Shown here: positions 10,240 to 55,446 of the stretch, one piece after another | Position numbering within the stretch: the stretch's first letter is position 1 | How the letters are laid out: every line of letters begins with the position of its first letter | Source: an uncultured Bacteroidia bacterium | Lineage (GTDB): Bacteria; Bacteroidota; Bacteroidia; Bacteroidales; UBA932 | Assembly (NCBI GenBank): GCA_902797435.1 | Contig: CADBSV010000039.1 | Coordinates: 26,142 to 90,141 of the forward strand | Direction of reading: 5' to 3' | DNA length: 64,000 bases | The notes under the pieces: model-generated | Told to the model about the DNA's origin: nothing | Databases searched by the model: none | The model's input: the letters and a program-made list of their open reading frames with translations, nothing else | Position numbers and translations under genes: made by a program

Positions 10240-10240
10240 C

Positions 10241-19479: not shown

Positions 19480-20350
19480 TCCCGGGAGGGTGCACGAAGG
19501 TGGCACGGTAAGCAAGGAGGCCCGTTTTGCACTCCGGAGGGTGCACGGAGGAGACACGGGGTGCAGGGAGGCCCGCTTTGCTCCCGGGAGAGTGCATGAA
19601 GGTTGCACGGTGAGCAAGGTGGCGCGGTTTGCTCCCGGGAGGGTGCGCGGAGAAGGCTCGGGGTGCAGGAAGGAGCGATTTGCTCCCCGAAGGGATCGCT
19701 GAGAAGGCTCGGGGAGCACAGACGGGTGGTTTCGCTCCCCGGAGGGTGCACGGAAGGTGGCACGGTGAGCAAGGAGGCGCGGTTTGCTCCCCGAAGGGTG
19801 CATGAAGGTGGCACGGTGAGCAAGATGGCGCGGTTCGCTCTCGGGAGAGAGCACGGAAGGGGACCGGGGTGCAGGGAGCCCCGTCTTTCACCCGGAAGGG
19901 ATCGCAGAAATGGGTCGGGGTGCAGGGAGGCCCGTTTTGCTCCCCGAAGGGTGCACGGAAGGGGACCGGGGTGCAGGAAGGAGCGATTTGCTCCCGGGAG
20001 GGTACGCGGAAAGAAAACGGGGTGCAGGAAGGAGCGATTTGCACCCCGAAGGGTGCACGGAGAAGGCTCGGGGAGCAGGGAGGCCCGGTTTGCTCCCGGA
20101 AGGGTGCGCTGAGAAGGTTCGGGGAGCACAGACGGGTGGTTTTGCTCCCCGGAGGGTACGCGGAAAGGGACCGGGGTGCAGGGAGGCCCGTTTTGCTCCC
20201 CGGAGGGTGCACGGAGAAGGCTCGGGGAGCACAGAGGGTGGTTTTGCACCCGGAAGGGATCGCTGAGAAGGCTCGGGGTGCACAGAGGCGCGTTTTGCTC
20301 CCGGAAGGGACCGCAGAGAGTGACCGGGGTGCAGGAGAGGGGCCGGGGTG
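19480..20350. repeat. 51-bp GC-rich tandem repeat array, 17 copies (array A)
   Basis: Seventeen units start at 19480, 19531, 19582, 19633, 19684, 19736, 19788, 19839, 19890, 19941, 19992, 20043, 20094, 20146, 20197, 20248 and 20299. Thirteen periods are 51 bp and three are 52 bp. Each unit has a core near GCTCCCCGGAGGGTGC and an arm GGGG(T/A)GCA, so complementary arms alternate along the array and can pair. Between these fixed parts only a few variant segments occur, combined in different orders. No convincing gene lies in 19369-20424; long open frames across the array are a by-product of its composition. Confidence 0.93.
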
Positions 20351-20424
20351 CGCAAAAAAGGAAGGGGGGGCGGGAAACAGAAGATGCACCCGGTTCATAC
20401 CCGGGTTCGAAAGTGCGCGAATAA

Positions 20425-22287
20425 TCAGAAACGTACGGACTGCCAGCCGGAGGTGGAGGAACCCGCCACCGGGCGGACGGACTGGAGGGATTCCGCATCG
20501 GCAAGACAGAAATTTATCTTCATTGAAGACAGGGCCGGAGAGGATGGCGCCCCGGCGCCGGCAGACGGCTCGGGACTTGACAACACAGGACTTGACAACA
20601 CGGGGCAAGACGACAGAGGAAGGGAGAATTCTGCAATGAACCACCCGTCTCCGTCCTTCACGCTGCAGGACACATCGATCCCGGCATTCCGCCATCCGCC
20701 TTTCCAGCTGCTCGCCCTCACCGAACCATCGGAAGAAACCCGGACTGCGACATCCCCTTCTTCAAAAGCATCAGAACCGGAAGAAGCCAGATAAACCGAC
20801 ACATAGGCCCCGGAGCTGCCTGACACCCAGGAAGGATTCTCAACTTCGGCAAGGAAATAAATGCGGCCGTCGCGGACACTGCTCCTGAGCGTGGAATGCA
20901 TCTCGTCCCTGGAACCTACGAAAAGGGCCTGCCCGGTCGCCGGCCACTCATCATTGTTTCCGTCCACCTTCACTGAATGGCCGGCTGCGTAGATGTCATG
21001 ATTGAGATAGTAAGTGCCTACCTGGAGCGAATAGCCTAGCCCTGATGCGCCTCCCGAGCCCCCGACGCCTGCCACAAGGATGTGTCCGTCCGGGAGCACG
21101 GAGCCCCAGAATCCCCTGCCCTGTATGCCTTCGGTGCCGAAGAAACGCTCCTGCTCGGAAAAGACCCTGGCATCCTCGCCCGCGGTGCGCATATAGAAGG
21201 TATTGTTGTTATTGTAGGTCAGAACCACTTCGCCCGACAGGAACTGCTCTATTGTGGGAGCGGCGCCCTTGAACGCGGCATTGATCCTGTCCTCAGGCAT
21301 GTTGCCGTCGGAGTCGGGGCTGCCCCAGTCGTAACCGGGACCGCTGTACGAAAGGCTTACATGATAGTTGGTCGTAGTGGAGGTGCATGGCGCAAGATTC
21401 GCCTCCCCTGTCCCTACGAGCCTGTCGGTTCCGCGAAGGCAGATCACTCCCGGCATCTGGTCGGTATAGACTCTCTGCACGCCTTTGGAATCGCGCAGCT
21501 GGCGGAACGCATGAATATGATCGCCAAGGGGATCTTCCGGCAGCCAGGTCTTCCCGTTGTCGTCGGAATAGATATAAGACACCCCGGAGCTTACTATCGC
21601 ACTGCTCCATACCCCTTCGATGAAAGGACATGAGTCGGTATAATAGATTACCACCCTCCCCGAAGGAAGCAGCAGCGGACGCGGCTCCCAGTTGGTGCCC
21701 ACATTGATGCGGATCTCCTGCGACCAGGTAGCACCTTCGTCGGAACTGAACTTCAGGGCGAGACCGTTGTCAAGGAGTCTGTGTCTCATGTCCTCCGATC
21801 CGCGGTAAGAAGCCACCACCATCAGCCTGCCGTCCGCAAGCCGCACGGGATGGGCACCGGCATAATAGCGGGTTATTACATTGTCGTAATGTCCCTGGAC
21901 ATTGCGCTGGATAGGGAAAATCTGGCGTACGAAAGTCCAGTTCCTGAGGTCGCGGCTTTCGGCGAGGGCGCAGTAGGTTCCCGCCCATGACTCCGCTGTT
22001 CCGGCATGGAAGAACATAAGGTACCTGCCGTCCGTAGTCTTTATGAAACGGGGATAGATGGGCATGTCCATCTGCGTGGCATCCTTCCCCACAAGGGTCC
22101 AGCTGCCGCCGATGAAGGTAAGGACCGACGCCGAGGTGTCGTGATACAAATCCGCAGACTCACCCTGGTTGAGAAGATTGCAGGGTGTGATTCCCGAAGG
22201 AGTTCCGGAAGAGGGAGCCTCATGCCTTCCGCACGAAAAGAGCAGCAGACAAAACGGAAACAGTATCAGCGCAAGCCCTTTCCTCAT
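20425..22287 (-). CDS. sialidase-fold lipoprotein with CBM9-like tail (paralogue 1)
   Basis: A 620-residue lipoprotein (lipobox L-L-F-S-C) in the sialidase/BNR beta-propeller superfamily. It has the family blocks shared by four genes here: Y-P-R-F-I-K-T-T-D-G with a conserved Arg, Asp-boxes S-S-D-E-G-A-T-W and S-D-D-N-G-K-T-W, W-E-P-R-P-L-L-L-P-S-G, and Y-T-D-Q-M-P-G. Residues about 440-620 form a CBM9/DOMON-like carbohydrate-binding domain opening with V-K-V-D-G-N-N-D-E-W. A Ser/Pro/Ala-rich stretch interrupts this domain near residue 560. Substrate unknown; sialidase activity is not shown. It is the last gene of the PUL, one base after the DUF4886 gene, and array A follows. Confidence 0.75.
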   Translation of the reverse strand: MRKGLALILFPFCLLLFSCGRHEAPSSGTPSGITPCNLLNQGESADLYHDTSASVLTFIGGSWTLVGKDATQMDMPIYPRFIKTTDGRYLMFFHAGTAESWAGTYCALAESRDLRNWTFVRQIFPIQRNVQGHYDNVITRYYAGAHPVRLADGRLMVVASYRGSEDMRHRLLDNGLALKFSSDEGATWSQEIRINVGTNWEPRPLLLPSGRVVIYYTDSCPFIEGVWSSAIVSSGVSYIYSDDNGKTWLPEDPLGDHIHAFRQLRDSKGVQRVYTDQMPGVICLRGTDRLVGTGEANLAPCTSTTTNYHVSLSYSGPGYDWGSPDSDGNMPEDRINAAFKGAAPTIEQFLSGEVVLTYNNNNTFYMRTAGEDARVFSEQERFFGTEGIQGRGFWGSVLPDGHILVAGVGGSGGASGLGYSLQVGTYYLNHDIYAAGHSVKVDGNNDEWPATGQALFVGSRDEMHSTLRSSVRDGRIYFLAEVENPSWVSGSSGAYVSVYLASSGSDAFEEGDVAVRVSSDGSVRASSWKGGWRNAGIDVSCSVKDGDGWFIAEFSLPLSSCPVLSSPVLSSPEPSAGAGAPSSPALSSMKINFCLADAESLQSVRPVAGSSTSGWQSVRF

Positions 22288-22288
22288 A

Positions 22289-24094
22289 CTATTCGACTAT
22301 CGAAAAGCTTACCTTGCCGGGGTCGCCCCAGAAATAGAAAACGGATGAGAACTCTCCGCCGGCTATATTCGGGGTCTCCCTCTGCACGGCTCCGTCTGCG
22401 GTAGCCTGGATGCTGCCGTCGGCGCAGCGGAAGCGGAAGCGAAGATACCCTTCGGATATTCCGTTTTCGAATGTAACATCCTGTGTTATACGGGTTTTTC
22501 CATGAGCTATTGCAAACGTAGCGTCCCTTTCGAAAGCTCCGTCCCAGGTAGGAATCTGGGAATGGGAGCAGCGCCACTCACCGCCGTCTTCGTAGTCAAG
22601 ATACCAGAAGCACGGCCCCTGGCGGGTGTAGAACGGGGCGTCAACACGCACGGTGGTTCCGGCGCGGAAGTTCTTCACCGGAATGGTGAATTCGAAATAG
22701 TCACCCGTCCACACCGCATCGAGAGCCACAGAAGAGATGTTGCTGTCCTTTGAATTGGCAAACGTGCGGTTATACATAAGCCCGTCCACCGGGAACGAAA
22801 CGGGGACCCATCTCGCAAAAGCCTGCGGCTGGGCAGACTGCCAGAGGGCGTACCCGTTCCAGTAGCCCTGGGTAGTGCTCGTGTTGTATGCGTACGTAAC
22901 CGGGAATTCCACCGGGAACCTCACCGGTATGATATCTACTCCGGGGCCGTCGAAACGGAAGCTTCCCGGCACGTTCTCGTGCCTGGTATCTGCCGTGTAA
23001 GCCGACATGTCGGTGATTTCGAGGGGATGTTCGAAGGCTGCGTCCACCGCGGCATTGACCAGATCCCAGTTGGCATCGGTGATGGGCGTGCGGCGCCTGA
23101 CAAATCCAGGCTGATACTCGCTGATCCTGAATTTGACATCTTTCGCCTTGATGCCTGTGCAAGGCTCGATGATGGTTTTCCAGAAAAGCAATGACGCAGC
23201 CACGCGGCTTAGGCCGTAGTCGAGGTGGCAGCCGTCTCCGCGAAGCATGTCGGTGCCGTCTCCCGGATCGAGGGCGGAGGTGCGCAGATTCTCTATGAGG
23301 GCTCCTGTGGAGATAATCTTCCCAAAGGGGAATCCTTCTTCGGGATCCATTACATGCGCCGCGTTTTCGGAGACGCAGGTTTCGAACTGCCTGACGTGGC
23401 TTCCGCCGAAATTATTGGCGCAGATGCTATATGAAGATGCATGACAGTGCGAAAGGAAATATACCAGTTCCGCATTGGGATTGGCTTCGAGAATCTTGTC
23501 GCACAGGGCGCGGATGGCGTCACGCTCGGTGTCATCCCATTTCCAGCAGTGCGAGTTTCCGGTGTATTCCTGAATCACCACAATATCGTAGGGAGCGTCC
23601 TCCACGGCTTCGCGAAGAGAGTGCGTGAGGTTGAAATTGCCGCGCCAGATATCCTGCCCGGGCTGCCATGTGGTAATGGAACAGATTGAAGGATTGTCGT
23701 AGTTGGCATTGTATCCTACGATATAATAACCGCCGTGATACACCCTGGTGAACTCGATGTTGCGTACGCCTTCGCCATTGAGCATAAGCGGTAGCAGGTC
23801 AGTGGAGTCGAGGGTATGGCTGTTGCCGATAAAGAGGATACGCACCGGGGCGTAGGTGCCCAGCGGGTCTATCCCGAATGCAAGGCCGCCCTCTTCCTCT
23901 CCCGGGTCATCGGGGTTTTCGGGACCCGAAGGATCGTCGGGCCCGGGATTGTCGGGATCGTCGGGCCCGGGAGTATCCGGAGTGTCGCTTCCCTGTTCCT
24001 GCTCCTCGGGTTCACTGCCGGAAGCATCCGGCTTTGCACAGGAGCAGAGACTTATCCCCAACATACATACGAGGCAGAACAGTATTTTTTTCAT
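22289..24094 (-). CDS. DUF4886 SGNH-hydrolase-like lipoprotein
   Basis: A 601-residue lipoprotein (lipobox S-L-C-S-C). A spacer rich in Pro, Asp and Glu follows the lipid anchor to about residue 70. The catalytic domain begins with R-I-L-F-I-G-N-S-H-T, in which Ser92 is the likely nucleophile of an SGNH hydrolase, and contains D-G-C-H-L-D-Y-G, a plausible Asp/His pair. These match the DUF4886 family of Bacteroidetes, predicted esterases or deacetylases of glycans. The C-terminal half is beta-rich and unassigned. An in-frame ATG two codons upstream (24100) is an alternative start. Tightly packed between two sialidase-fold genes. Confidence 0.72.
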   Translation of the reverse strand: MKKILFCLVCMLGISLCSCAKPDASGSEPEEQEQGSDTPDTPGPDDPDNPGPDDPSGPENPDDPGEEEGGLAFGIDPLGTYAPVRILFIGNSHTLDSTDLLPLMLNGEGVRNIEFTRVYHGGYYIVGYNANYDNPSICSITTWQPGQDIWRGNFNLTHSLREAVEDAPYDIVVIQEYTGNSHCWKWDDTERDAIRALCDKILEANPNAELVYFLSHCHASSYSICANNFGGSHVRQFETCVSENAAHVMDPEEGFPFGKIISTGALIENLRTSALDPGDGTDMLRGDGCHLDYGLSRVAASLLFWKTIIEPCTGIKAKDVKFRISEYQPGFVRRRTPITDANWDLVNAAVDAAFEHPLEITDMSAYTADTRHENVPGSFRFDGPGVDIIPVRFPVEFPVTYAYNTSTTQGYWNGYALWQSAQPQAFARWVPVSFPVDGLMYNRTFANSKDSNISSVALDAVWTGDYFEFTIPVKNFRAGTTVRVDAPFYTRQGPCFWYLDYEDGGEWRCSHSQIPTWDGAFERDATFAIAHGKTRITQDVTFENGISEGYLRFRFRCADGSIQATADGAVQRETPNIAGGEFSSVFYFWGDPGKVSFSIVE

Positions 24095-24101
24095 ATCCAT
24101 C

Positions 24102-25811
24102 CTATTTTAACACTATTGGTATCCATTTATTCACTTCCGTGGCTCCGATGCCGTCGAAAGTATCGGTGACATCGCCCTTATAAAGAACGGCATTGAAGTA
24201 GAGCCTGCCGTCGGAAGAAACAGGCAGCGAGGTCTTGTCTATTGCAAATTCTGCGATGTAGCCTTCCTTCCTGGAAGTGTAGGCCGCACCCTTGCAGCCG
24301 GGTGAAGGGATTATCCTGGCTTTGCCGGAAACGTCGGCAAAAGCCATGCGTATGCTCCCCTTGCTGCTGCCGTCGCTGAACATAAGGGTGAGTCCGTCCC
24401 CGCTGGAAAGCTCCTCGTCGAGGCATTCCGCCAGCACGTACACCTTCCCCGCATCATGGGCAAAGCGGAGGCAGCACTGGGCCGGGGTGTCGCTGCCGAG
24501 GAAAAGCACCTGCCGGACGCCCTCCCATTCATCGTTCTTGCCGTCCGCCTTGACCGGCATGGAAGGAGCTTCCACGCTGCGGTTAAGATGCATCTGGGTG
24601 AGCATCAGTTTGCCGCGTTCGACATTGCTGCCACGGTAGAGCCAGGTGGTGACGGCGGCAAGGGTCGTGGGACCCACTATCTCAAGGCTTCCCCATCTGG
24701 AAGTCCTGAAACCGAAGGGGAAGAGCGGTGCTGCGGACGGAATGTCCTCTCCGGTGCTGCCGCCAAGACGAACCGCAAAATCCCCTGCGAAGCCATAAGA
24801 GACGACCGTCTCTCCCGAGGGGAACTGAACCAGATAGGGTCCGGAACCTTCGAAAGCGGACTTTACCCTTTTGCTGGGACCGGCCATTTCTCCGGTGAGG
24901 GTGACAGGCCAGCGGTAATCCTCCCAGGCAAGGGAAACCGACAATTGATGGTCGGGGGTTTCCGTTTCAGTTACCGCCATGGCTGTTTCGGTTCCGCGGA
25001 GTATCCTTACTACCGGCATCTGGTCGGTGAACACGGTACGGGTGGAATCGGGCTTGAGGCGGGGAGTTCCTACAGAGCGCTGGGCTGCGACAGCCTTTCC
25101 GCGGACCTGCCTTATGGCCTGCTGCTGAAGGGTCCAGGTGTATCCTCCGTCCTTACTGCGAAGCAGGCTGCAACCAGAAGAATTGGGATCCCAGTCCCAG
25201 TCGGAATCAGTGAAGAACACCAGTATCTCGCCGTCCGGAAGCACCATGGGATAGGGCTCCCAGTCAACCGAAGTGTGAAGCACCTGCTCGGGGCCCCATG
25301 TGCGGCCGCCGTCGCTGCTGCGTTTCATGCTCAGGCCGAATTCGCCGAGATGCTTGCCGTAATGCTTCTGCGAATGGAAGATGCAGAAGCAGAGGATATC
25401 CCCGTTTTCAAGCTGCACCGCGTCGGCGGTAGCATATTTATGGTCATCCTCCTCTCCGTCGCCGTTTTTGAACTTTCCGCCCTCGAAGACACGCTGCCCG
25501 CGCGTCCAGTGGATACAGTCGCTGCTCAGCGAGCAGTAGATATGGTAACCATGCTTTAAGGGCTGGTAGAAAAGGATATACGAGCCGTCGCGAAGCTTTT
25601 TTACCCGGCCGTAGTCGAGCATCTGCTGGCCGAGGGTCTCCTCGCCCAGCACCACCGATGTACGGTAGTCTTTTTCGAGCGAACTCCTCGAAGCGTCGCA
25701 TACGGCCGGATCGCCTGCCCGTGCTCCGATTTCCGAAAAGGAATGGATATGGGTCTGCGCCGAAAGCGTTACGGCACACAGCAGGGAAAGCGGGAACAAA
25801 AGACCTTTCAT
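24102..25811 (-). CDS. sialidase-fold protein with CBM9-like tail (paralogue 2)
   Basis: A 569-residue exported protein (signal peptide ending near S-A-Q-T-H). It shows the family blocks Y-G-R-V-K-K-L-R-D-G, S-S-D-G-G-R-T-W and S-K-D-G-G-Y-T-W Asp-boxes, W-E-P-Y-P-M-V-L-P-D-G, F-F-T-D-S and F-T-D-Q-M-P-V. A CBM9-like domain starts at P-V-K-A-D-G-K-N-D-E-W. The conserved Arg in the first block is placed like the RIP-motif Arg of sialidases, but the family is not a recognised sialidase. It lies 4 bases after paralogue 3 and 7 bases before the DUF4886 gene. Confidence 0.72.
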   Translation of the reverse strand: MKGLLFPLSLLCAVTLSAQTHIHSFSEIGARAGDPAVCDASRSSLEKDYRTSVVLGEETLGQQMLDYGRVKKLRDGSYILFYQPLKHGYHIYCSLSSDCIHWTRGQRVFEGGKFKNGDGEEDDHKYATADAVQLENGDILCFCIFHSQKHYGKHLGEFGLSMKRSSDGGRTWGPEQVLHTSVDWEPYPMVLPDGEILVFFTDSDWDWDPNSSGCSLLRSKDGGYTWTLQQQAIRQVRGKAVAAQRSVGTPRLKPDSTRTVFTDQMPVVRILRGTETAMAVTETETPDHQLSVSLAWEDYRWPVTLTGEMAGPSKRVKSAFEGSGPYLVQFPSGETVVSYGFAGDFAVRLGGSTGEDIPSAAPLFPFGFRTSRWGSLEIVGPTTLAAVTTWLYRGSNVERGKLMLTQMHLNRSVEAPSMPVKADGKNDEWEGVRQVLFLGSDTPAQCCLRFAHDAGKVYVLAECLDEELSSGDGLTLMFSDGSSKGSIRMAFADVSGKARIIPSPGCKGAAYTSRKEGYIAEFAIDKTSLPVSSDGRLYFNAVLYKGDVTDTFDGIGATEVNKWIPIVLK

Positions 25812-25815
25812 ACGT

Positions 25816-27498
25816 TTATTCTACGATGCGTATAGGCATCCATCTTTCATATTGTTTCTCTCCGACTTCGGTAAAGGCGTCAACGATTCCCGGCTTGCGG
25901 ATTTCCGCGTAGAGGAAAACGCGATCCTGAATGAAAGGCAGTTCCGCGCGGGGGATGGCAAGTTCCGCCACGTACCCGACCCCGTCTTCCCTGATAACGG
26001 AAGACAAGACCTCGGAGCCGGCTTTCACGCGGCCGTCGAAGCCGCAGCGGAGGCGGGTCTCGAAGATGCCGTTTCCATTCTGCCCGTTGCTGAAAAGGAG
26101 CCGGATGTTGTCCCTGGGGATAAGGTCTTCGTCGAGGTACTCCACAAGCATGTAGAGATACTGCTCGTCATAGGCGAAACGCATGCTGCATTGCGCCGGT
26201 GACTCGCTTCCGAGGAATAGAGCATCGGTGATGGCGCCCCATTCTATGTTGTTGCCGTCGGGGCGGATATGGGCATACGGGGCATCCACCCTGTGGTTGA
26301 GACGCATCTTCCCGAGCATTATCGTACCGCTCCTTTCATCCTGGCTCAGGCTAGGTGCGGTGGCATAGAGGGTGTGGGAGTCTATGGTCGTCATGCTTCC
26401 CCAGAGGCTGTGCCTTCGGCCGAAAGGCTGGAAGGCATAGGCATTCCTGATGCTTATGAAATCGCTCTTGCCGAGCTTGATGTTGAAGTATTTTCCCTGG
26501 AACGAAAGGGCCGTTTCCCCGGAAGGGAAATGCGCCAGGTACGGGCCACCTCCGGAACGGAAATTGTCGAGCCTGTCGGCAGGTCCTGTCTTGTCTCCGG
26601 TAAGGGTTTCCGTCCAGTTGGTGTCGTCCGAAACGAGAGTGATTGTGAAATGGTTGGTGGAATCCTGCGATTCGACTGCCGCAAGGATGGTGCGCCCGTC
26701 GCCAAGAAGCACTGCGGAGGGCATCTGATCCGTCCAGACCTTGCGCGTGCCTGGTTTCCCGTCGGCCCGTTTTGCCGTAGCCCTGTACTGGCGTATTACC
26801 TGACAATGGGTGGTCCAGCTGCGGCCGCGGTCGAGGGACCTCAACATAGTGACGCCCGATGAAGCCGGCAGCCAGTCGTGGTCGGAGTCGGTGAAATACA
26901 CCTGCACTTCTCCGGATGGCAGCTGCATGGCATAGGGTTCCCATGTGATGCTGGTGTATATGTCGGTCACCTCCCCCCAAGTTCTGCCGCCGTCGGTACT
27001 GCGCCTCATGCTGAGGCCGTCATCCTGTGGGAAACGTTTGTATCCCTTTACGGCGCGGTACGACGCAAATGCCAGGATGTCGCCGTTATCAAGCACAACA
27101 GCATCGGCCGTGGAATAGGCCCTCGTATCGGGCTCTCCCCCGGAGTTGATGATTTTTTTGGCCTCGAAGACCCGCCCGCCTTTCGTCCAGTTGATTCCGT
27201 CTTTAGACAGGGCGCAATAGCAGTGCACACCGATTCTGGAACTCTGGTAAAAGAGGATGTAGGTGCCGTCGGAGAGTTTCTTGATGCGAGGATAATGCAG
27301 GTTCCTGTGCCCGAGCTCAGCTTCCCCGAGTTCCACTATGGTGCGGTAGTCCGGTTCGAGTCTATACCTGTTTTCACGGAGATGGGAATCCACCCCGAAA
27401 TCGCAGTTGAGTTCTTCTATTCCGTGGATATGGACTTTCTGCCCGGAAAGTGCGATTCCGGACAGAAGGCAAAGGGCACAGAGGAGGATCTTTCTCAT
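25816..27498 (-). CDS. sialidase-fold protein with CBM9-like tail (paralogue 3)
   Basis: A 560-residue exported protein; the ATG at 27498 gives a clean signal peptide and overlaps the preceding stop by one base (TAATG), so translation is coupled. Blocks: Y-P-R-I-K-K-L-S-D-G, S-T-D-G-G-R-T-W and S-L-D-R-G-R-S-W, W-E-P-Y-A-M-Q-L-P-S-G, V-W-T-D-Q-M-P. The CBM9-like domain opens with H-I-R-P-D-G-N-N-I-E-W. It is the closest relative of paralogue 2 in the window, judged by motif spacing, which suggests a recent tandem duplication. Confidence 0.72.
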   Translation of the reverse strand: MRKILLCALCLLSGIALSGQKVHIHGIEELNCDFGVDSHLRENRYRLEPDYRTIVELGEAELGHRNLHYPRIKKLSDGTYILFYQSSRIGVHCYCALSKDGINWTKGGRVFEAKKIINSGGEPDTRAYSTADAVVLDNGDILAFASYRAVKGYKRFPQDDGLSMRRSTDGGRTWGEVTDIYTSITWEPYAMQLPSGEVQVYFTDSDHDWLPASSGVTMLRSLDRGRSWTTHCQVIRQYRATAKRADGKPGTRKVWTDQMPSAVLLGDGRTILAAVESQDSTNHFTITLVSDDTNWTETLTGDKTGPADRLDNFRSGGGPYLAHFPSGETALSFQGKYFNIKLGKSDFISIRNAYAFQPFGRRHSLWGSMTTIDSHTLYATAPSLSQDERSGTIMLGKMRLNHRVDAPYAHIRPDGNNIEWGAITDALFLGSESPAQCSMRFAYDEQYLYMLVEYLDEDLIPRDNIRLLFSNGQNGNGIFETRLRCGFDGRVKAGSEVLSSVIREDGVGYVAELAIPRAELPFIQDRVFLYAEIRKPGIVDAFTEVGEKQYERWMPIRIVE

Positions 27499-29291: not shown

Positions 29292-29294
29292 GCC

Positions 29295-32200: not shown

Positions 32201-32558
32201 TCACCACGTGGTTGTGGTAGAAGATGTCGTAGCCGTTCGTCTTGTCAACCGCGTACAGAAGACGGCCGCCGATCTCCGGAAGGATGCAGAGCTCGATATA
32301 CTCGTTCTCCATATATATGCAATCGTAGGTGACATCCTCACGGTTGCGGGTCATATTGTCGTTCAGCGGATAAGGATACACGCTTCTCTTTGCCCTCTGG
32401 TAGGACCAGTCCCGCTCGAAGATAGGCGCCTTCTCGGCAGGATCGAGCAGATACGTCGGCATCGTTATTTTCCCTTCATAGGCCCTCACTCCCTGTGCAA
32501 ATGAGGGAAGAGAAGAGGCCATCATCAACAAAACAAGCGGTAAGAGTACTTTTTTCAT
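29295..32558 (-). CDS. DUF5107 and TPR-repeat exported protein
   Basis: A 1087-residue protein with a signal peptide ending near S-F-A-Q-G. The N-terminal half (to about residue 480) matches DUF5107, a beta-sandwich with features of aldose-epimerase-like folds (L-P-E-I-G-G-R-L and a His-rich W-N-V-F-H-H-H-R-Q segment). The C-terminal half consists of tetratricopeptide repeats (for example A-M-Y-N-L-G-L-V-L-K-A-Q-G and A-W-R-N-L-G-W-G-N-W). Proteins of this architecture accompany carbohydrate genes in several phyla; their reaction is not established to my knowledge. Within the PUL it sits between the DUF5689 lipoprotein and the four propeller genes. Confidence 0.75.
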   Translation of the reverse strand: MKKVLLPLVLLMMASSLPSFAQGVRAYEGKITMPTYLLDPAEKAPIFERDWSYQRAKRSVYPYPLNDNMTRNREDVTYDCIYMENEYIELCILPEIGGRLLYAVDKTNGYDIFYHNHVVKPANVGMTGAWISGGVEWNVFHHHRQTSHIPCDWRIVENADGSKTVWVGETEYRHRMQWAIGVTLYPGKSYMEVSGRLMNGTQNNNSMLFWANVSTHVDENYQIIFPQQTEFVTFHCKNWFAHWPVTHEKYNNMDFYEDGIDASWWKNHYMSNSMFVYDQKADFVAGYDHGRHAGTMLTGNHNIIKGGKFWLWGPNSEWDTKILTDTSGHYIELMVGAYSDNQPDYNWNFPYETKTFSQYWYGIRDMEGVKAGNRHAAINMEVKSPGQVLIGANATEKMSKVTLRLSSGGKVLHERSSSIDPARPIVETVAVDPALAESDLTLELFDARGVKMLSYTPVVKDPSSPLPPIVDRPKKPSDIANTEECFLVGLRNLQFHNPFIDPTDYFLEVLRRDPGDTRANTQMGVWYRLRGEYEKAAGYLRTAIRRQTHDYTRPKDAEAMYNLGLVLKAQGKTDAALDTLYRATWNYTYNSGANTQLAQIYAQQGNWEMALDRLDEAIAYNGRNYQAKTFKGSILKKLGRRAEADACFRDVLREDPVNAMALHQTLSPEGFRRFMREQPESYLELAILYLHNGFKDTAVSLLKDINTRVQWPTVKLWLAYLTGDDSLYAEGLSLPVGYCAPFRLETIDVLNAAKAACPGSERPYYYMGNLLYNIQPDNAMLEWEKCVEMNPQDDLAWRNLGWGNWLHTKDYAEAAKCYLKAVELNPQPLYLEEGDQAAEAARVPVRERYELLKSHHDVAVKRYYPLAQEVVLGTFCGDYDYALDLLDKCYFPTREGVANFHDNFVDACVLAGMKKLREGDAEGAIALYNKAFTYPENHQVFLVDERATHDSQINYELGLAYEKLGDRDSARKYFELSANQDYKLKGSKNWRYYSAMAMKKLGRKAEAREILRKMVREGKDGIIKEYINFYGAEGTTGVTVDGKNAAAYYTRALGELGLGHKLRARRYLKKVVALDYDNLWANELLKK

Positions 32559-32577
32559 TTTTTATATTGATAGTTTA

Positions 32578-42361: not shown

Positions 42362-42368
42362 AGCAAGA

Positions 42369-43952: not shown

Positions 43953-43955
43953 GGA

Positions 43956-46040: not shown

Positions 46041-46048
46041 CCTAGAGA

Positions 46049-48580: not shown

Positions 48581-48595
48581 TTTACAGGTTCAACA

Positions 48596-48733
48596 TTAAT
48601 CCTCCCAATCGAATACATCGCTTTCCTCCGTGAGAGGAACGAGGCTGCCGTTGACACACAACGAAGCCTGAGCACCGAGAAGGATTTCGGTGATTTGCGG
48701 AGTCTGATACTCCTTCTTGTTTTGTTTTGTCAT
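48596..48733 (-). CDS. small 45-residue peptide of PUL-associated type
   Basis: An ATG-started 45-codon frame 15 bases before the beta-helix lipoprotein, same strand. It has a basic N-terminus (M-T-K-Q-N-K-K-E), then Y-Q-T-P-Q-I-T-E-I, a single Cys in A-S-L-C-V-N-G-S, and a strongly acidic, aromatic C-terminus (D-V-F-D-W-E-D). This Y-x-x-P ... E-I ... L-C ... D-W-E pattern recurs in many short Bacteroidetes proteins next to surface lipoprotein genes. Their function is not known to me. It is the first gene after a palindrome-bearing leader. Confidence 0.65.
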   Translation of the reverse strand: MTKQNKKEYQTPQITEILLGAQASLCVNGSLVPLTEESDVFDWED

Positions 48734-48764
48734 ATTACTGCGCAGTTTTGATTGTTTCAGTGTT

Positions 48765-48782
48765 ATGGGGATTTATCCCCAT
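48765..48782. promoter_or_regulatory. perfect palindrome upstream of the SusC/D operon
   Basis: ATGGGGAT-TT-ATCCCCAT is a perfect 8-bp inverted repeat with a 2-base centre, 31 bases before the small peptide start. A near-match to the -7 box (CATATTTG on the minus strand, 48784-48791) adjoins it, so the palindrome falls at the likely transcription start. It may be an operator or a 5' hairpin. Confidence 0.5.
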
Positions 48783-48853
48783 GCAAATATGAGTTTTCCC
48801 AAAACAACCCTACGAAAGATTATTTTCAGAAAACGCAAAAAAAATGGCAGCCC

Positions 48854-51800
48854 CTAAGAAGCTGCGTATTCCGAGGGGGTTACGCCGTATTGTTCCTTGA
48901 AACACTTGGCAAAATAGCTTTCGCTGGTGAAACCGGCGGCATAGCAGATTTCGGTTATGTTGTTGCCATGGCTGTTCTTCAGCATGGCGGCAGCCGACAT
49001 AAGCCTCTTGGTGCGTATGTAATTGCTCGGCGAGGTGTTGAGCATCTTGCGTATTTTGCGGATAAGGGTTGACTGGCTGATGCAGAGTTTGTCGGCTATC
49101 ATTTCATTGGAAAGTTCGGAGTTGCCGAGGTTTTCCTTTATGAAAGAATCGAAAGTGCGGAAGAATTCTTCGTCGCGCTTCGGAAGGCCGAACAACGAAA
49201 TATCGGTATCGGGCACTCCCGAAACAAGGGCGTCTCGCATCAGTTTCCGCCTCTCCAGAAGCCCGCGGATGCTGCTGCGCAGATACTCCAGGTCGAAAGG
49301 TTTTTCAAGATAGAGGTCCGCCCCGGCCTCCATGGCCTGAATCTTCGACTCTACCGATGCCCTGGCCGAGAGGATTATGATGGTGACATGCGAAATCTCA
49401 ACGTCGGAACGGATGCGTCGGCAGAGCTCAAGGCCGTCCATTCCCGGCATGGTGATGTCGGTCATCACCAGCTCCACGTTATTCTCCCTCATCACCTCCA
49501 GGGCCGATGCCGCACCCGTGCTGCGCATCACCGTGTATTCGTCGCTGAGCTTGCGGTAAAGGAAGTCCCTGAGCTCGGCATTGTCGTCCACAAGAAGGAT
49601 TATGGGCTTGGAGGCCGTATTCCCCTCAGACATCTCTTCGGACTCATTCGTTACCGGGTGGGGGGGGCAAGTTCGGGGTATCGTGAATACAAATGTTGTC
49701 TTTTCCTGGCCGGACTCCAGCACCAGGTCGCCGGAGTGCTTGCGGGCAAGTGAGCGGGCCAGCGGGAGACCTATGCCGAAGCCTTTGTGAAGACTGGAGC
49801 CGTCCTTGTGATACTGTACAAACGGCTTGAAGATGTCTTCCCTGAATTCTTCCGGTATCACTTCTCCGTCGTTCGACACCGCAAGACGGGCGAAGCCGTC
49901 GCGGGTAACGGAAAGCGATATGGCTATCGTCGTTTCGGCAAACTTGAGGGCGTTGATGAGCAGATTGTTGAGGATCTTGTTCAGTGCAGGCGCATCGGCA
50001 GACACCCAGACCTGCGGTTCGGAAACTGAAAGATTTATGCGGATATTCTGGTTGGTCGCGGTGTCGGAATAGTTGAACACTATCGAGCGCAGGGTCTCCA
50101 CGAGGTCGATATCCTCATTGTTGAGCACATACCCGCTCCGTTCTATCCTTACGAACTCCAGCAGCTCGTTCACCAGCATGGAGAGGTAGTCGGTGTTGCT
50201 CTTCATCACTTCCAGGTCGTGGCGGGTGTCTTCGTCAAGGCCCTCCTTTGATATCACGCTCTGCAGAGGCGTCTTTATCAGCGTAAGAGGAGTCTTTATC
50301 TCATGCACCACATGGCTGAAGAAATTGATCTTGTCGTGGAAGAGTTCATCCTCGGCCTCGCGGCGGTAGCTTGTCTCTTTGCGGCGCAGGATAAAGCGCA
50401 GGGCAAAGATAAAAACAAACGCCAGGACAGAGACAATGATGGCAATCCCCTGAAGCGAGGCGAAGAAAGTGGGTTTTATGGTTATCTCTACCGGAGCATG
50501 GGCCTCGACCCACCGGTTGTCGGATACGCAGGCCTGTATTTCGAGATGGTAGTTGCCGGACGGGACATTATAGTAATATACCGACTTCGTCACCGAAATG
50601 TCCTGCCAGTCCTGCTCGAAACCGTGAAGCCGGCAGCGAAGCTGATTCGAGGCCGGGAAAGCCAGGTTCATCACGGAGAATTCGAATCCGAATGAATTCT
50701 GCCTCGCCCTGAGGGTTATCCTGTCCATGAGGTCAGTATTCCCCGCAAGCGGGTCGGGGCCTATCAGCATCTCGGACAGAATCACCGCCGGAGCCGTCTC
50801 CATGGGACGGAAAGACGAAGGAGCGAAGAGCACGAAACCATTGTCTGACCCCGCCATCAGCTCTCCGGATCGGAGGATGATGCTGCTGTTTGTGAGCTTC
50901 CGGTCAAGCAGACCGTCGAACTCTCCATAGAGATTGAGGGCCTGCGAATGCGGATTGAAACGGAACAGCCCCTTGTCGGAATTGAGCCAGAGGTTTCCGT
51001 CGGCATCCTGACTTGCACAGAAGAAAACTCCGGTGGTAAGGGAAGGTATGGTCGAGGAGTCGTAAACCTCAAAGTGGCCGCTGTCGAATTTGGCGAAGCC
51101 GCTGCTGAAACCGATGGTCCAGACCTGGCCGTCCCTGTCTGCGAATACCGAAGATATTTTGTCGGAAGGCAGCCCTGTTCCGTCGCCATAGCGGTAGTTG
51201 CAGACAAGTTCGCATGTAACCGGATTCCAGACGAAAAGGCCGGTGGCATAACTGGAAATCCACATCAGCCCGTCCGGAGTTTCGTCCATCGAAGTGATGA
51301 ACACCCCGTCGAAGGCCGGAATCTGCACGAATCCGTCTGAAGAACGGTCGTAACGGAACATCCCGAGGGTATTTGCAAAATAGAGGCTGCCGTCTTCACT
51401 TTTGTAAATGACATACACCCTCGGGTCGGAAACTCCGGCAGAGCGGTGCAGCGTGCCGTAATGACGCACTGCGCCGGTAGGAATGTCGAGGCAGTAAAGG
51501 CCGTCCAGCGAGCCGAGCCAGAGTCGGTTCCCGTCCACGCAGGGGGCGCAGAGGCTCTTGGGAAGACTGCCTCCCGTCGGACGGAACGGGGACAGCTCGC
51601 AGCTGACGGGATTGTAAGTGAACAGTCCGCCTTCCTCGGTGGTAATCCATACGCGGCCGGATGCATCCTGTGCGAATCCGCTGACAAGAGTATTCTTGAG
51701 GGTTCCGCCGGGGTATCTGTCGGTCTTGCGGATAATCTGCTGCGACTTTCCGGAATAGCTGACGCCTCCGTCCTTGGTGCCCACCCACAGGCCGCCTTCA

Positions 51801-52783
51801 CGGTCGATGCAGATGGTCATCACATAGTTGCCTGATATGGAGTTGCGGTCGGACGGGTCGCTGTACAGATGCAGCGGAGCGCTTTCCTTCTGCAGGTCGT
51901 AACGCCAGACTCCGCTGTTGGTGGACAGCCATACCCAGCGGCCCTGCTGCAGCACGGCATCCACCAGGGTCGTACCCTCAGGTATGCGGAACAGGGTTTC
52001 AACCGTTCCGGCAGCTGGGTCGTAAAGGCTCAGTCCCTGAAGGTTGCTCGCCACCAGGAGCTTCCCCTCCAGCATGAAGAGCTGCTCAATTTCATCTCCC
52101 TTGTAGAAATCCCTGTCCGACGGAATATCCACCGGTTTCACATGACGGAATCCGGCATCGGCATGAAAGAGGTTAGAATGGTATTTGGACACCCAGAAGC
52201 CTCCGTTTCCGTCTTCCGTAAGGCGCCGGAAACTGATGCTGAGTTCGTCGGTATTGTATTCCGGGGTCCGCTTGACACCGTCACGGAAGTTGACAAGCGA
52301 CCCGTCCGAAGGGTCATAGCAGAAACAGCCCTGATAATTGGCCACGAACCATACTCGGCCATCTTCCCCGCAATGTAGGAAAGTAACCTTGTTCCTTATT
52401 CGCGTGCCTTTGTCGCTCTCAAGCAGGAAGGGCTCGAAACGGTCTTCCTTCCAAATGTACTGCGAAACTCCTGCATCGGTGCCTATCCACAGGTTGCCAT
52501 CCAAGTCCTCCGTTATGCAGTGGATGAAGTCGGACGCCAGGCCGAGCTCCTTCTTGCGGTAATGCTTGAAATGGGTTCCGTCGTATCGGTTGAGGCCGCT
52601 GAACGTCCCTATCCAGATGTAACCCCTGCTGTCCTGGACAATCTTGCTGACGCCGTCGTAACAGAGGCTGCTGTTGGACGTATTGAGGTGGGTGAATTCA
52701 TATTCTGGCAAACGCGCCTGCCCGCCGGCATGCAAAGCGCACGCAAGCAGCACAAGCATTGTTATGAACGCCTTCGCTTTCAC
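48854..52783 (-). CDS. hybrid two-component system sensor/regulator (HTCS)
   Basis: A 1309-residue one-protein signalling system typical of Bacteroidetes PULs. Order: signal peptide; about 14 Reg_prop propeller repeats (residues about 25-690, with G-L-N-R-Y-D-G, V-W-F-V, G-L-S-L-Y-D); Y_Y_Y domain (about 695-765); one membrane span (about 768-792); HisKA with phospho-His827 in V-V-H-E-I-K-T-P; HATPase (N-box near 936); receiver domain with phospho-Asp1109 in M-T-D-I-T-M-P-G-M-D-G; AraC-type helix-turn-helix at the end (residues about 1205-1305). The periplasmic part binds an oligosaccharide and the DNA-binding end activates the PUL. The start is GTG, directly after the preceding stop. Confidence 0.95.
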   Translation of the reverse strand: MKAKAFITMLVLLACALHAGGQARLPEYEFTHLNTSNSSLCYDGVSKIVQDSRGYIWIGTFSGLNRYDGTHFKHYRKKELGLASDFIHCITEDLDGNLWIGTDAGVSQYIWKEDRFEPFLLESDKGTRIRNKVTFLHCGEDGRVWFVANYQGCFCYDPSDGSLVNFRDGVKRTPEYNTDELSISFRRLTEDGNGGFWVSKYHSNLFHADAGFRHVKPVDIPSDRDFYKGDEIEQLFMLEGKLLVASNLQGLSLYDPAAGTVETLFRIPEGTTLVDAVLQQGRWVWLSTNSGVWRYDLQKESAPLHLYSDPSDRNSISGNYVMTICIDREGGLWVGTKDGGVSYSGKSQQIIRKTDRYPGGTLKNTLVSGFAQDASGRVWITTEEGGLFTYNPVSCELSPFRPTGGSLPKSLCAPCVDGNRLWLGSLDGLYCLDIPTGAVRHYGTLHRSAGVSDPRVYVIYKSEDGSLYFANTLGMFRYDRSSDGFVQIPAFDGVFITSMDETPDGLMWISSYATGLFVWNPVTCELVCNYRYGDGTGLPSDKISSVFADRDGQVWTIGFSSGFAKFDSGHFEVYDSSTIPSLTTGVFFCASQDADGNLWLNSDKGLFRFNPHSQALNLYGEFDGLLDRKLTNSSIILRSGELMAGSDNGFVLFAPSSFRPMETAPAVILSEMLIGPDPLAGNTDLMDRITLRARQNSFGFEFSVMNLAFPASNQLRCRLHGFEQDWQDISVTKSVYYYNVPSGNYHLEIQACVSDNRWVEAHAPVEITIKPTFFASLQGIAIIVSVLAFVFIFALRFILRRKETSYRREAEDELFHDKINFFSHVVHEIKTPLTLIKTPLQSVISKEGLDEDTRHDLEVMKSNTDYLSMLVNELLEFVRIERSGYVLNNEDIDLVETLRSIVFNYSDTATNQNIRINLSVSEPQVWVSADAPALNKILNNLLINALKFAETTIAISLSVTRDGFARLAVSNDGEVIPEEFREDIFKPFVQYHKDGSSLHKGFGIGLPLARSLARKHSGDLVLESGQEKTTFVFTIPRTCPPHPVTNESEEMSEGNTASKPIILLVDDNAELRDFLYRKLSDEYTVMRSTGAASALEVMRENNVELVMTDITMPGMDGLELCRRIRSDVEISHVTIIILSARASVESKIQAMEAGADLYLEKPFDLEYLRSSIRGLLERRKLMRDALVSGVPDTDISLFGLPKRDEEFFRTFDSFIKENLGNSELSNEMIADKLCISQSTLIRKIRKMLNTSPSNYIRTKRLMSAAAMLKNSHGNNITEICYAAGFTSESYFAKCFKEQYGVTPSEYAAS

Positions 52784-54988
52784 CTATTTTGCATAGAACC
52801 TCCACTCGGTGGTGCTGTAATACTTTTCGCCCGGACGCAGCACGGTGGACGGGAACCTTGGCTGGTTGGGGCTGTCGGCGAAATGGATGGTTTCGAGCAG
52901 CATCCCGCCATATTTGTCAACCGGGCCGTACTTGCCCTGCATGGTACCGTTGAAAGCGCGTCCGGTGTAGGTGAGAATCGCCGGTTCGGTTGTCCAGGTC
53001 TGGACTCCGCGACCGCTTTCTGGTTCGTACAGGTCGGCTGCAAGACGGAGGCTTCCGTCCCATCCGCGGACCACCCAGCAGGCGGACATGCCCTTCATGA
53101 TGCGAAGATGCTCATTGGGAGTGTCGAGGCGGTAGTCAACCCTGTGCGGAGTGCGGAAATCGAACGGAGAATCCTTTACGGGGAGAATGAGGTCGGGGCA
53201 CATCTGCTCGTTGTTCTGGATGTATTCGTCGGCTTCTACCTTGAGCAGGTGATCCATCACATAACCGCCCTTGCGCCCCTTCAGGTTGAAGAAGGAGTGG
53301 TTGCTGAGATTGACGACCGTAGGCTTGTCGGTGGTGGCGGCATACTCCACTTTAACCACATTGTCTTCTGTAAGCCAATAGGTTACGGTGCAGTCGCAAT
53401 TGCCGGGGAAACCCGACTCACCGTCAGGAGAGATGCGGTGGAAACTGACCCCCACGCGGCCATCTTCCTTAAGTGTCCTGCCTTCCCAGAGGAAGCGGTC
53501 GAAACCCTGCGAAGCACCGTGGCACTGCACCGGCTCCCCGCCGAGGTTCTCGTTGGCCTCGAGCTTATACTCAACACCGTCGAGGGTAAATGAGGCGTGG
53601 TTGATACGGTTGCCGTATCTGCCTATAACGCAACCGAGGAAGCGTTCCGGCTTGGCGTTTTCGAATGTCTTCAGGTCGTCGGGACCGACAATTACGTCAT
53701 CCACGGCGCCGCTGCGGTCGGGCATGCAGATTTTCACTATGCGTGCACCGTAATCGGAAAGCACCACCGAGGCTCCGGCCTTGTTGGTGAGCACGTAGCG
53801 GTGAGCCTTCTTGCCGGTAGAGAGGGTTCCGTAGTCCTGGGTGCGGACGTCAAGGGAACCGTTTCCCGCCGTCATCGCCTTTATGAAGCGTACTTCGTCG
53901 GCGTTCCATGGAGTTCCGTCGGCACGGAAGATATCGTGGAACCACACGGGAGGTTCTTCGGTCCAGGGTATCCTCTTTCCGTCCACTACGGCATTCCAGG
54001 GGAGATGGCACTGCTGCTTTCCGTTCACAAGGCCGTAGCTGAACGAACCGATCTTGTACTTTTTGAAAAGGGGAAGTATCGAGAAATAGTCGGATCCCTT
54101 GGTGCGGGCCATCCATTCCGAACAGAGTATGGGCCTGCCGAACTGGCGCATGTAGTTCACGAATTTGCTGCACTCGGGATACGAGGAGTAGCAGTGGAAG
54201 GAGACTATGTCGCTCGCATCGCAGACGAACGAAACGATGGGAAGGTTGGTTCCCGCGCTTCCGGGACACTGCCACACCGGAGAGGTGAGCGGCTGGGAAG
54301 GATTCACTTCCCTTGCCCATTTATACACTTCGCGAAGGAACGGCAGGGTATTGAAACCCTTGGTGTTCTCGGGCTCGTTGTAAAGGCACCATGCCAGGAT
54401 GCGGGGATCGTCCTTGTAGCGGGTAATCACCTGCTTGAGGTATTTCTCTATCACGGGCCACTTGGCGGGATCGTTCACGACATCCTTTCCGGGAGATGAC
54501 ATCCATGTGGAGTTATGGATTCCGGGTGCCGGCTGGGGCTGCGGACCGAGATAGGGGTTCTTGATGGTTCCTCCGTTGGTAAAGAAAGTAAGGAGGATGC
54601 GAAGCCCGTGACGGTCGGCAAGGGAGACGGTCTGCTCGAGCCTGTCCATGAATCCGTCGGGATCGTTCTGCCACACTATGTCGCACAGGAAAAGCCTTAT
54701 TGCGTTGAACCCCAGCTCTTCGGCAAGGGAGAGTTCGTGATCTACGACTTCGGCGTCGAAGTATTCCGCCCCCCACATCTCGACCGGAGTGCCGGCATAC
54801 GAAGGAACGAATACGCACCCTACCGGCCACGGCTGGGCATCGTACCAGGCATTTGCCTTTTCTTCGGTCCAGCGTTCGGCAGGAACCGGTTTAGGGGCCT
54901 GTTTTTTCCTGGGGGCTCCCGAGACGGAGGCATTGAAAGTGACTGATAAAAGCGCTGCAAGGCAGATAATGGCTATGGTCTTCTTCAT
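52784..54988 (-). CDS. GH5-like glycosidase fused to aldose 1-epimerase
   Basis: A 734-residue exported protein with two enzymatic domains. Residues about 40-385 form a GH5/clan-A-like TIM barrel: acid/base Glu205 in Y-N-E-P-E and nucleophile Glu291 in C-S-E-W are both in expected places. Residues about 395-734 are a galactose mutarotase domain with G-R-Y-G-N-R-I, His564 in S-N-H-S-F-F-N-L and Glu699 in L-L-E-T-I-H-F. Such a fusion would cleave a glycan and interconvert the anomers of the released sugar in one protein. It is the first gene of the PUL; HTCS begins with no gap. Confidence 0.82.
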   Translation of the reverse strand: MKKTIAIICLAALLSVTFNASVSGAPRKKQAPKPVPAERWTEEKANAWYDAQPWPVGCVFVPSYAGTPVEMWGAEYFDAEVVDHELSLAEELGFNAIRLFLCDIVWQNDPDGFMDRLEQTVSLADRHGLRILLTFFTNGGTIKNPYLGPQPQPAPGIHNSTWMSSPGKDVVNDPAKWPVIEKYLKQVITRYKDDPRILAWCLYNEPENTKGFNTLPFLREVYKWAREVNPSQPLTSPVWQCPGSAGTNLPIVSFVCDASDIVSFHCYSSYPECSKFVNYMRQFGRPILCSEWMARTKGSDYFSILPLFKKYKIGSFSYGLVNGKQQCHLPWNAVVDGKRIPWTEEPPVWFHDIFRADGTPWNADEVRFIKAMTAGNGSLDVRTQDYGTLSTGKKAHRYVLTNKAGASVVLSDYGARIVKICMPDRSGAVDDVIVGPDDLKTFENAKPERFLGCVIGRYGNRINHASFTLDGVEYKLEANENLGGEPVQCHGASQGFDRFLWEGRTLKEDGRVGVSFHRISPDGESGFPGNCDCTVTYWLTEDNVVKVEYAATTDKPTVVNLSNHSFFNLKGRKGGYVMDHLLKVEADEYIQNNEQMCPDLILPVKDSPFDFRTPHRVDYRLDTPNEHLRIMKGMSACWVVRGWDGSLRLAADLYEPESGRGVQTWTTEPAILTYTGRAFNGTMQGKYGPVDKYGGMLLETIHFADSPNQPRFPSTVLRPGEKYYSTTEWRFYAK

Positions 54989-55009
54989 TCTGGTTGTGGT
55001 TTATTTTTC

Positions 55010-55017
55010 CAAAAATA
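55010..55017 (-). promoter_or_regulatory. -7 promoter box for the GH5/epimerase-HTCS operon
   Basis: The minus strand reads TATTTTTG, matching TAnnTTTG, 21 bases before the ATG at 54988. Array C begins about 80 bases further upstream. Confidence 0.5.
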
Positions 55018-55094
55018 ACCAATAGTCTCGAAAACCTGCAAAAAAGAAAAGTCATAAGATGAAAAAAAATTTGCAAACTGCCTTTCCCTGCCGC

Positions 55095-55446
55095 GGGGTG
55101 CAGGGAGGGGTGGTTTTGCACACGGAAGGGTGCGCGAAAGGGGGCACGGGGTGCAGAGAGGCGCGATTTGCTCCCCGGAGGGTGCGCAAAGGTGGCTCGG
55201 GGTGCAGGGAGGGGTGGTTTTGCACACGGAAAGGTCCGCGAAGGGGGTTCGGGGTGCACGAGCGGGCGATTTGCTCCCCGGAGGGTGCGCAAAGGAGGCC
55301 CGGGGTGCAAAAAGGGGTGGTTTTGCACACGGAAGGGTCCGCGAAGGGGGGTCGGGGTGCAAAAAGGGGTGGTTTTGCACCCGGAAAGGTCCGCGAAGGG
55401 GTTCGGGGTGCAGGGAGGCGCGGTTTGCTCCCCGGGAAGGGACGTG
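55095..55446. repeat. 51-bp GC-rich tandem repeat array, 7 copies (array C)
   Basis: Seven cores start at 55120, 55172, 55224, 55275, 55327, 55379 and 55429 (periods 52, 52, 51, 52, 52, 50). Unit types alternate at first between GCTCCCCGGAGGG and GCACACGGAAGG forms. One unit contains a perfect 10-bp hairpin, GGGTGCAAAA with TTTTGCACCC. The array shares a 19-bp string with array A (TTTGCTCCCCGGAGGGTGC) and has the same orientation. It fills the divergent gap between the PUL and deoD, where no gene is seen from 54989 to 55541. Confidence 0.92.

Follow-up and report, generated by a model that had tools for sequence, protein, structure and literature searches.

The window (the whole stretch of DNA that was analysed, 64,000 nucleotides) carries a polysaccharide locus (PUL) at positions 20425..54988 on the minus strand. 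It codes for BNR-like proteins, a DUF5107-TPR protein, SusD, a TonB-dependent (SusC-type) receptor, a GH43-like and a DUF6259 protein, a hybrid two-component regulator and a GH5-like/aldose-epimerase protein. The PUL occupies a variable site which has the glycerol kinase gene glpK (17884..19368, minus strand) as its conserved left neighbour and dapB (56280..56951, plus strand) as its conserved right neighbour. A gene of the PNP/UDP phosphorylase family (55542..56255, plus strand), termed deoD in the first-pass annotation, lies between the PUL and dapB.

Two arrays of tandem repeats accompany the PUL. Array A (19475..20345, end approximate, plus strand) consists of 17 units in the gap that separates glpK from the 3′ end of the PUL. 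It begins about 106 bp upstream of the start codon of glpK, and some 85 bp remain between its end and the nearest PUL gene, measured to the 3′ end of that gene. Array C (55094..55440, end approximate, plus strand) has about 6.5 units and is located in the divergent gap that separates the first PUL gene from the PNP gene, its start being about 105 bp upstream of the former. The first-pass annotation had described A and C as one 51-bp repeat family with 17 and 7 copies, pointing in the same direction on either side of the PUL and having a string in common. Family, direction, position and the count for array A were confirmed in the sequence; in array C there are six full units while the seventh is represented by its anchor only, and single units are 50-52 bp long rather than uniformly 51 bp. 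The common string, TTTGCTCCCCGGAGGGTGC, occurs exactly once in array A (20192) and twice in array C (55167, 55270). When up to three mismatches are allowed there are 15 matches in the window, all on the plus strand, whereas 100 shuffled sequences had 0.04 on average and never more than 1. As an imperfect inverted repeat, the unit reads GGGGWGCA - 13 or 14 nt - TGCWCCC and recurs with a 51-bp period; the spacer between successive inverted repeats is mostly 23 nt.

A third array of the family in the window, which is absent from the first-pass annotation, has the same orientation as A and C. This array B (15200..15539, plus strand) comprises about 6.7 units, of which six are full and exactly 51 bp long, and lies in-frame within a lipoate-protein ligase gene of the LplA family (14748..15824, minus strand). 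The repeats encode an insert of about 119 residues, with one half of the catalytic domain on either side, and lplA is one continuous open frame through the array. In all four relatives that have the gene in the fetched stretch, the insert is missing and lplA is uninterrupted. The in-frame array is a natural experiment on protein insertion. Selection on the encoded peptide was considered and rejected, as the six units have 7, 5 and 5 variable columns at codon positions 1, 2 and 3, with no third-position excess.

The repeat is not confined to the window. The genome from which the window derives is a draft (80% complete, 81 contigs, 1.87 Mb), and a model of the repeat (R1) gave at least 148 matches at E ≤ 1, with 150 of 1477 first-look candidates scored. 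These matches merge into 20 places, 18 of which have at least three matches, while C44b has two and C26 a single partial match. Array B is the only intragenic array among the 20. Where an intergenic array has called genes on both flanks (12 cases), the gene context is convergent in 8, tandem in 2 and divergent in 2 (raw counts, without a base rate). A tRNA occurs within 350 bp of 6 of the 20 places, where 0.75 are expected upon random placement within the same loci (P about 0.0001). A leader-like sequence is common to five arrays (C14, C57, C61, C4, C44b) and a tail-like sequence to three of these (C14, C4, C44b). A second type of 5′ flank occurs at C37, C36a and C15, and the 3′ flank of array C is similar to that of C37; the remaining arrays have none of these leader, tail or flank types. 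The repeat looks like an element of the whole genome and not like a border specific to the PUL block.

Within the genomes searched, the repeat is specific to this lineage. The six nearest relatives are drafts which are 84-96% complete, and R1 had no match at E ≤ 0.1 in any of them (150 candidates scored per genome). Among 199 other genomes of the genus, a single one was matched at E ≤ 1e-4, with about 1.5 units (29 candidates scored per genome); with 29 candidates scored, our own genome still yields 47 matches. Among the open-access papers listed on 51-bp repeats (a single one, on pneumococcal typing), on minisatellites in Bacteroidales and on PULs with tandem repeats (10 of 102), none describes this repeat family, and none was listed on tandem repeats in Cryptobacteroides.

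Synteny with the relatives was compared for 7 of the 20 places (A, B, C, C36a, C36b, C44a, C44b), a non-random set chosen by window position or by one 20-kb query covering two arrays; in the DNA searches of the relatives, at most 40 candidates were scored per genome. The first-pass annotation had raised the possibility that copies of the repeat sit at the borders of variable gene blocks. Arrays B and C44b, two of the seven, are simply inserted into otherwise collinear DNA; the C44b site is collinear and array-free in relatives G232 and G255. The other five (A, C, C36a, C36b, C44a) coincide with a structural difference or lie close to one, and this points somewhat to a role in rearrangement. 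On contig C36, about 10.5 kb are inverted relative to the relatives. The left breakpoint interval (0.7 kb) contains one array and the right one (5.4 kb, its far side defined from G232 alone) contains an array in the opposite orientation, and these two arrays have at most 19 identical bases in common, 60-bp flanks included. The arrays may be occasional rearrangement points. A more far-reaching reading is that a palindromic, self-amplifying minisatellite has seeded the chromosome of one species with direct and inverted recombination points that drive inversions and the gain or loss of gene blocks such as the PUL, with no need for a dedicated recombinase, and that pairs like A and C delimit exchangeable modules. 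We put this forward tentatively and hold it to be rather unlikely; the width of the right C36 interval and its dependence on a single relative weigh against it.

A related proposal, made by the first-pass annotation, is that A and C, which have the same orientation, act as borders between which homologous recombination could deliver, delete or amplify the PUL as a module. The PUL is indeed lineage-specific in this comparison. Among the seven genomes compared, ours alone has the block that lies between glpK and dapB, and in 4 of the 6 nearest relatives glpK and dapB are adjacent, at a distance of 57-68 bp. From this adjacency it follows that these four relatives lack the leftward portion of the PUL (20.4-44 kb) at the site; copies elsewhere are possible. 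For window positions 44000-56267, none of the six relatives has a DNA match at E ≤ 1e-15 (at most 40 candidates scored per genome), and none has a match to the PNP gene at E ≤ 1e-30. Array A is close to glpK, the left edge of the block, and the oppositely oriented arrays in both C36 breakpoint intervals also speak for a recombination role. However, the lineage-specific block extends beyond array C, because the PNP gene sits between this array and conserved dapB: array C lies about 0.84 kb inside the right edge. In none of the six relatives was a residual array found at this site. The site is also variable without such arrays, since G232 has different genes between glpK and dapB and G255 has related genes after glpK.

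In addition, A and C are not a specially matched pair. Their mean unit identity is 0.732, which places them 77th among 190 pairs of array groups (the three sub-arrays of C37 taken separately; C26, C53 and the minus-strand matches of C12 left out as they have too few usable units), and their longest shared string, 60-bp flanks included, is 21 bp (rank 63 of 253). At the present divergence of the arrays, excision by recombination between A and C should be rare. Since the arrays furthermore belong to a genome-wide family, with many members near tRNAs and between convergent genes, we consider it unlikely that A and C serve as recombination borders; the proposal has partial support, from the lineage-specific block, the closeness of array A to glpK and the C36 inversion. 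In line with the first-pass annotation, a Pfam scan of 28 distinct window genes (PUL genes and PNP gene included; 1-11144 and 62680-64000 left out) revealed no integrase or transposase family. A distinct base composition of the PUL was also rejected, its GC content being 0.563 as compared to 0.580, 0.583 and 0.570 in flanking stretches (PNP gene, 0.522).

Comparison of 112 units of at least 40 bp showed that mean identity is higher within than between arrays in all 17 groups with two or more units. In 6 of the 17 groups, however, units have on average a better best match outside their array than inside it (with one tie), and therefore array growth is not purely local.

It could also be that the arrays are selected 3′-end regulatory or structural elements (terminators, mRNA-stabilising elements or supercoiling sites, roles that have been proposed for REP elements) and that the flanking of the PUL is incidental. 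The convergent gaps (8 of 12), the proximity to tRNAs (6 of 20) and the conservation of the inverted blocks agree with this, and a 120-nt stretch of array A folds better than shuffled sequences on both strands (z -3.2 and -3.3). However, corresponding stretches of arrays C and B show no such effect (z -0.4 and -0.2), and in 94 of 123 cases the W-W positions of the stem do not pair, so that preservation of the stem by compensation was rejected. Moreover, A and C are not located at two 3′ ends, and the elements were not found in the nearest relatives. A known RNA family was rejected as well, since Rfam at gathering threshold reports only tRNAs in 8 array-bearing loci. We thus regard a selected 3′-end function as improbable.

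That the arrays caused mis-joins in the draft assembly, making the inversion or the placement of the PUL false, is equally improbable: the arrays do break this assembly, as 11 of the 20 places are within 800 bp of a contig end, but the identical stretches between C36a and C36b (at most 19 bases) and between A and C (21 bases) would probably offer little for a k-mer mis-join, and lplA is a single open frame through array B.

The reading that we favour, and consider probable, is that of a dispersed lineage-specific minisatellite, similar to the BrickBuilt element of Porphyromonas, which grows partly in place, is found mostly at 3′ ends of genes and may be an occasional point of rearrangement. 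A non-autonomous element of this type would have settled chiefly in intergenic DNA at the 3′ ends of genes and tRNAs, with one copy settling in-frame within a gene. Slippage or unequal exchange would afterwards have made the arrays longer and in part more uniform, and different arrays would have exchanged some sequence. A and C would have settled in gaps around a block unique to this lineage at the glpK-dapB site and would not be its dedicated border. The distribution of the arrays, their restriction to this lineage among the genomes searched, the array-free sites, the greater mean likeness of units within arrays and the arrays in both C36 breakpoint intervals are shown directly, whereas the spreading of copies, the order of events and any role in recombination are what we infer. 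Neither a transposase nor terminal inverted repeats or target duplications could be identified, which leaves the spreading step unproved. With about 20 places in one lineage and none found in its sister species, the repeat makes it possible to test by comparison how a bacterial minisatellite arises, spreads and takes effect. The C36 arrays, together with array A at the edge of the PUL, provide a concrete test of whether repeats shape the turnover of gene blocks in gut Bacteroidales.

Several known systems have features in common with these arrays. Genomic islands with direct-repeat ends are gene blocks at a variable site with same-orientation repeats at their ends. The PUL block resembles them in being lineage-specific, in having such repeats near its ends and in having an empty site in 4 of 6 relatives. 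It differs in that array C is off the edge, no repeat copy is present at the empty sites of the relatives, the 28 scanned genes include no integrase or transposase, and the repeats occur throughout the genome.

REP elements prefer 3′ ends, and the repeat described here shares this preference. It is also similar to REP/REPIN elements as these are described, namely high-copy extragenic palindromic units associated with RAYT transposases (PMC2817692, PMC3116915). While those occur as single or paired units, no solo unit was found outside the arrays in about 0.39 of the 1.87 Mb, except for one partial lookalike (in L192). The genome has five matches to Y1_Tnp (RAYT-type), four of them above the cut-off, but within 400 bp of the five there is only a lone 8-bp half-motif, near C29a, and a RAYT-driven REP system was rejected.

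The palindromic elements of Rickettsia are described as being about 150 bp long, often intragenic, and in-frame in a metabolic gene (PMC10969869). Array B in lplA parallels the last of these features, whereas our elements are tandem 51-bp units with just one of 20 arrays being intragenic.

The closest counterpart is BrickBuilt, a MITE of Porphyromonas gingivalis, which is described as a tandem minisatellite with a 23-bp unit at about 19 loci in one genome, with a narrow host range (P. gingivalis, P. gulae), a variable number of units, a leader and a tail, IS5-like terminal inverted repeats and target duplications, and as always intergenic (PMC4596501). When the two are set side by side by description, the unit differs (51 bp as compared to 23 bp), and array B is located inside a gene. 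The proximity to tRNAs and the C36 inversion set our repeat further apart from BrickBuilt as described there. Terminal inverted repeats or a target duplication were not recognised by eye when the C44b and lplA sites were compared with the array-free relatives, a tentative result given how far these relatives have diverged. What the two have in common is that each is a tandem minisatellite with a variable number of units, dispersed in a narrow host group, at 20 places in the genome described here, and that the host is in both cases a member of the Bacteroidales.

Arrays A (19475 to about 20345, 17 units) and C (55094 to about 55440, six full units and a seventh anchor), which flank the polysaccharide utilisation locus (PUL), both have units of 50-52 bp according to Tandem Repeats Finder and direct reading. 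The first-pass annotation had considered them members of one family in the same orientation, and this is borne out, both being on the plus strand. A 19-mer common to A and C has 15 matches at up to three mismatches while the mean in shuffled sequences is 0.04, so the sharing is not due to chance. A third array of this family, array B (15200-15539), was absent from that annotation. In the 112 units measuring 40 bp or more, the best-kept positions fall into two blocks, GGGGWGCA and TGCWCCC, which are inverted relative to each other and separated by 13 or 14 nt, with the next pair mostly following 23 nt on. At the sequence level, the inverted repeat of the unit is thus clear. A 120-nt stretch of array A folds more stably than shuffled versions (z -3.2; minus strand -3.3). 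However, upkeep of a hairpin is not shown, as pairing is lacking at the middle W positions of the blocks in 94 of 123 cases and equivalent stretches of C and B do not exceed their shuffled versions in stability (z -0.4 and -0.2).

The family is spread over the genome (G000), a draft of 1.87 Mb in 81 contigs which is 80% complete and in which the window belongs to contig C39. At E<=1, the sequence model of the unit (R1) has at least 148 matches among the best 150 of 1477 candidates scored. With R1 and a profile applied to fetched stretches, and after merging of neighbours, 20 array places are obtained. Eighteen of these have at least three matches, the other two being C44b (two matches) and C26 (one partial match). 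As a contig end is found within 800 bp at 11 of the 20 places, their true number may be higher; an excerpt of PMC5771137 describes draft assemblies as broken by such repeats. A tRNA is located within 350 bp at six of the 20 places (0.75 expected, P about 0.0001). Judged from protein openings, the array neighbours presumably include genes resembling enolase, ATP synthase, feoB, rpsP/rimM, prfB and msrA. Genes around arrays were called with a codon-usage script, and 12 intergenic arrays are flanked to the left and right by a called gene or tRNA. Their flanks are convergent in eight cases (a raw count without base rate), tandem in two (A and C15) and divergent in two (C and C37). On contig C37 (L188 607-1466), three sub-arrays have flanks in common and together with these make up a higher-order tandem repeat of 335 bp with 2.6 copies. 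Tandem arrays of other families (12/36/60 bp and 17 bp) occur at L194 12528-12801 and 14753-15087.

Among 200 genomes of the genus, including our own, R1 matches at E<=1e-4 (best 29 candidates per genome) are restricted to G000, which retains 47 matches under these stricter filters, and G152. The G152 copy (L203 7000-7090, contig C35) has about 1.5 units with 51-bp spacing by eye, is outside called genes, and is possibly a low-copy form of the motif in a different species of the genus. With one mismatch allowed, an exact-type pattern is present one to four times each in 23 of 60 other genomes, compared to 8 of 61 for the reversed control; as single motifs are thus common, information comes from arrays alone.

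The PUL is lineage-specific and is located at a variable site. The six nearest relatives were picked by GlpK (84-93% identity) among 400 genus genomes. In four of them (G381, G380, G100, G045), glpK and dapB are only 57-68 bp apart. In G232, the site carries genes for an Ig-like and a LuxR-type protein and is split over two contigs, whose join is inferred by comparison with G255. The latter has related genes after glpK, and its dapB contig stops about 240 bp past dapB. The PNP gene, between array C and dapB, is without a match at E<=1e-30 in all six. Likewise, the region 44000-56267 gives no DNA match at E<=1e-15 in them, in contrast to dapB and the neighbouring genes. The PUL-PNP block is therefore specific to G000 among the seven genomes. 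A residual array had been anticipated in relatives lacking the PUL, but no R1 match at E<=0.1 was found in the six.

It had been proposed that A and C mark the PUL borders. The arrays, their placement and the lineage specificity of the PUL are real, and the left edge of the block is near array A. However, the right edge is near 56256-56279, past the PNP gene and about 0.84 kb from array C, and the family occupies 20 places. We conclude that the arrays belong to a minisatellite family spread over the genome and are no dedicated border of the PUL. It had further been proposed that recombination between A and C could delete, circularise or amplify the locus. The mean unit identity of A and C is 0.732 (rank 77 of 190), and with 60-bp flanks counted in their longest common string is 21 bp (rank 63 of 253). 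At this divergence, A and C would be unlikely to recombine often. In 17 of 17 groups, units are on average more alike within an array than between arrays, but in six of the 17 the closest unit lies, on average, in a different array. The arrays thus show local growth as well as exchange or shared descent.

A role of the arrays as occasional rearrangement points is made more likely, though not proven, by an inversion on contig C36. G232 (contig C17) is collinear up to C36 34587, continues with a tRNA and C36 45680 down to 35317, and then with 51183 onward. G255 has the same left junction and orientation, and G381 and G380 have this segment orientation beside the upstream neighbours of feoB, which itself lies at another place. 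Thus, a segment of about 10.5 kb is inverted in G000 (L187 4589-15818). Array a (34635-35255, minus strand) is within the left breakpoint interval (34588-35317), and array b (46098-46439, plus strand) is within the right one (45818-51183), which is 5.4 kb wide with its far side from G232 only. The two arrays share at most 19 identical bases, which speaks against a mis-join but, to the same degree, against recombination of the arrays as they are now. Up to 49999, the right interval has no DNA match in four relatives; the remainder was compared with fetched stretches only. The 4.7 kb past array b (46486-51183; L187 16487-20000 and L223 1-1183) may be a further lineage-specific block next to an array. 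In the feoB-tRNA gap of G232 (L236, C17 about 20010-20200), a different G+C-rich, visibly repetitive sequence takes the place that array a has after feoB in G000.

On C44, both arrays are within DNA collinear with G232 and G255. The C44b array is extra DNA, and a gene-sized stretch beside C44a is also missing in these two relatives; as it matches G380 and G381 in part, it may have been lost in G232 and G255. Five of the seven arrays compared with relatives are at or near a structural difference and two are plain insertions; there are also junctions whose gap itself has no array (C36 51183, the PNP-dapB edge, the similarity end near 59910).

Array B is inside lplA (14748-15824), where it encodes an in-frame insert of about 119 residues that separates the two halves of the catalytic domain. 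This insert is absent from LplA in all four relatives whose fetched stretch includes the gene, and its position corresponds to that between residues 98 and 117 of 1vqz. The six full units of array B are exactly 51 bp, but so are those of the intergenic array C28, and its variable columns are distributed 7, 5 and 5 over the codon positions, so that selection on the insert at the protein level is not seen.

A REP-RAYT system is not supported for this repeat. The closest known element in kind is BrickBuilt, which occurs in P. gingivalis and P. gulae and is, according to an excerpt of PMC4596501, a 23-bp minisatellite in a MITE with leader and tail and 19 copies in one strain. Leader- and tail-like sequences are common to several, but not all, G000 arrays. 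One G000 array, unlike BrickBuilt as described there, is intragenic, and no terminal inverted repeats or target duplications were recognised by eye at C44b and lplA, where the array-free relatives are too diverged for a firm call, so that we do not claim membership. The in-frame insertion of array B resembles the Rickettsia palindromic elements, as far as these are described in an excerpt of PMC10969869.
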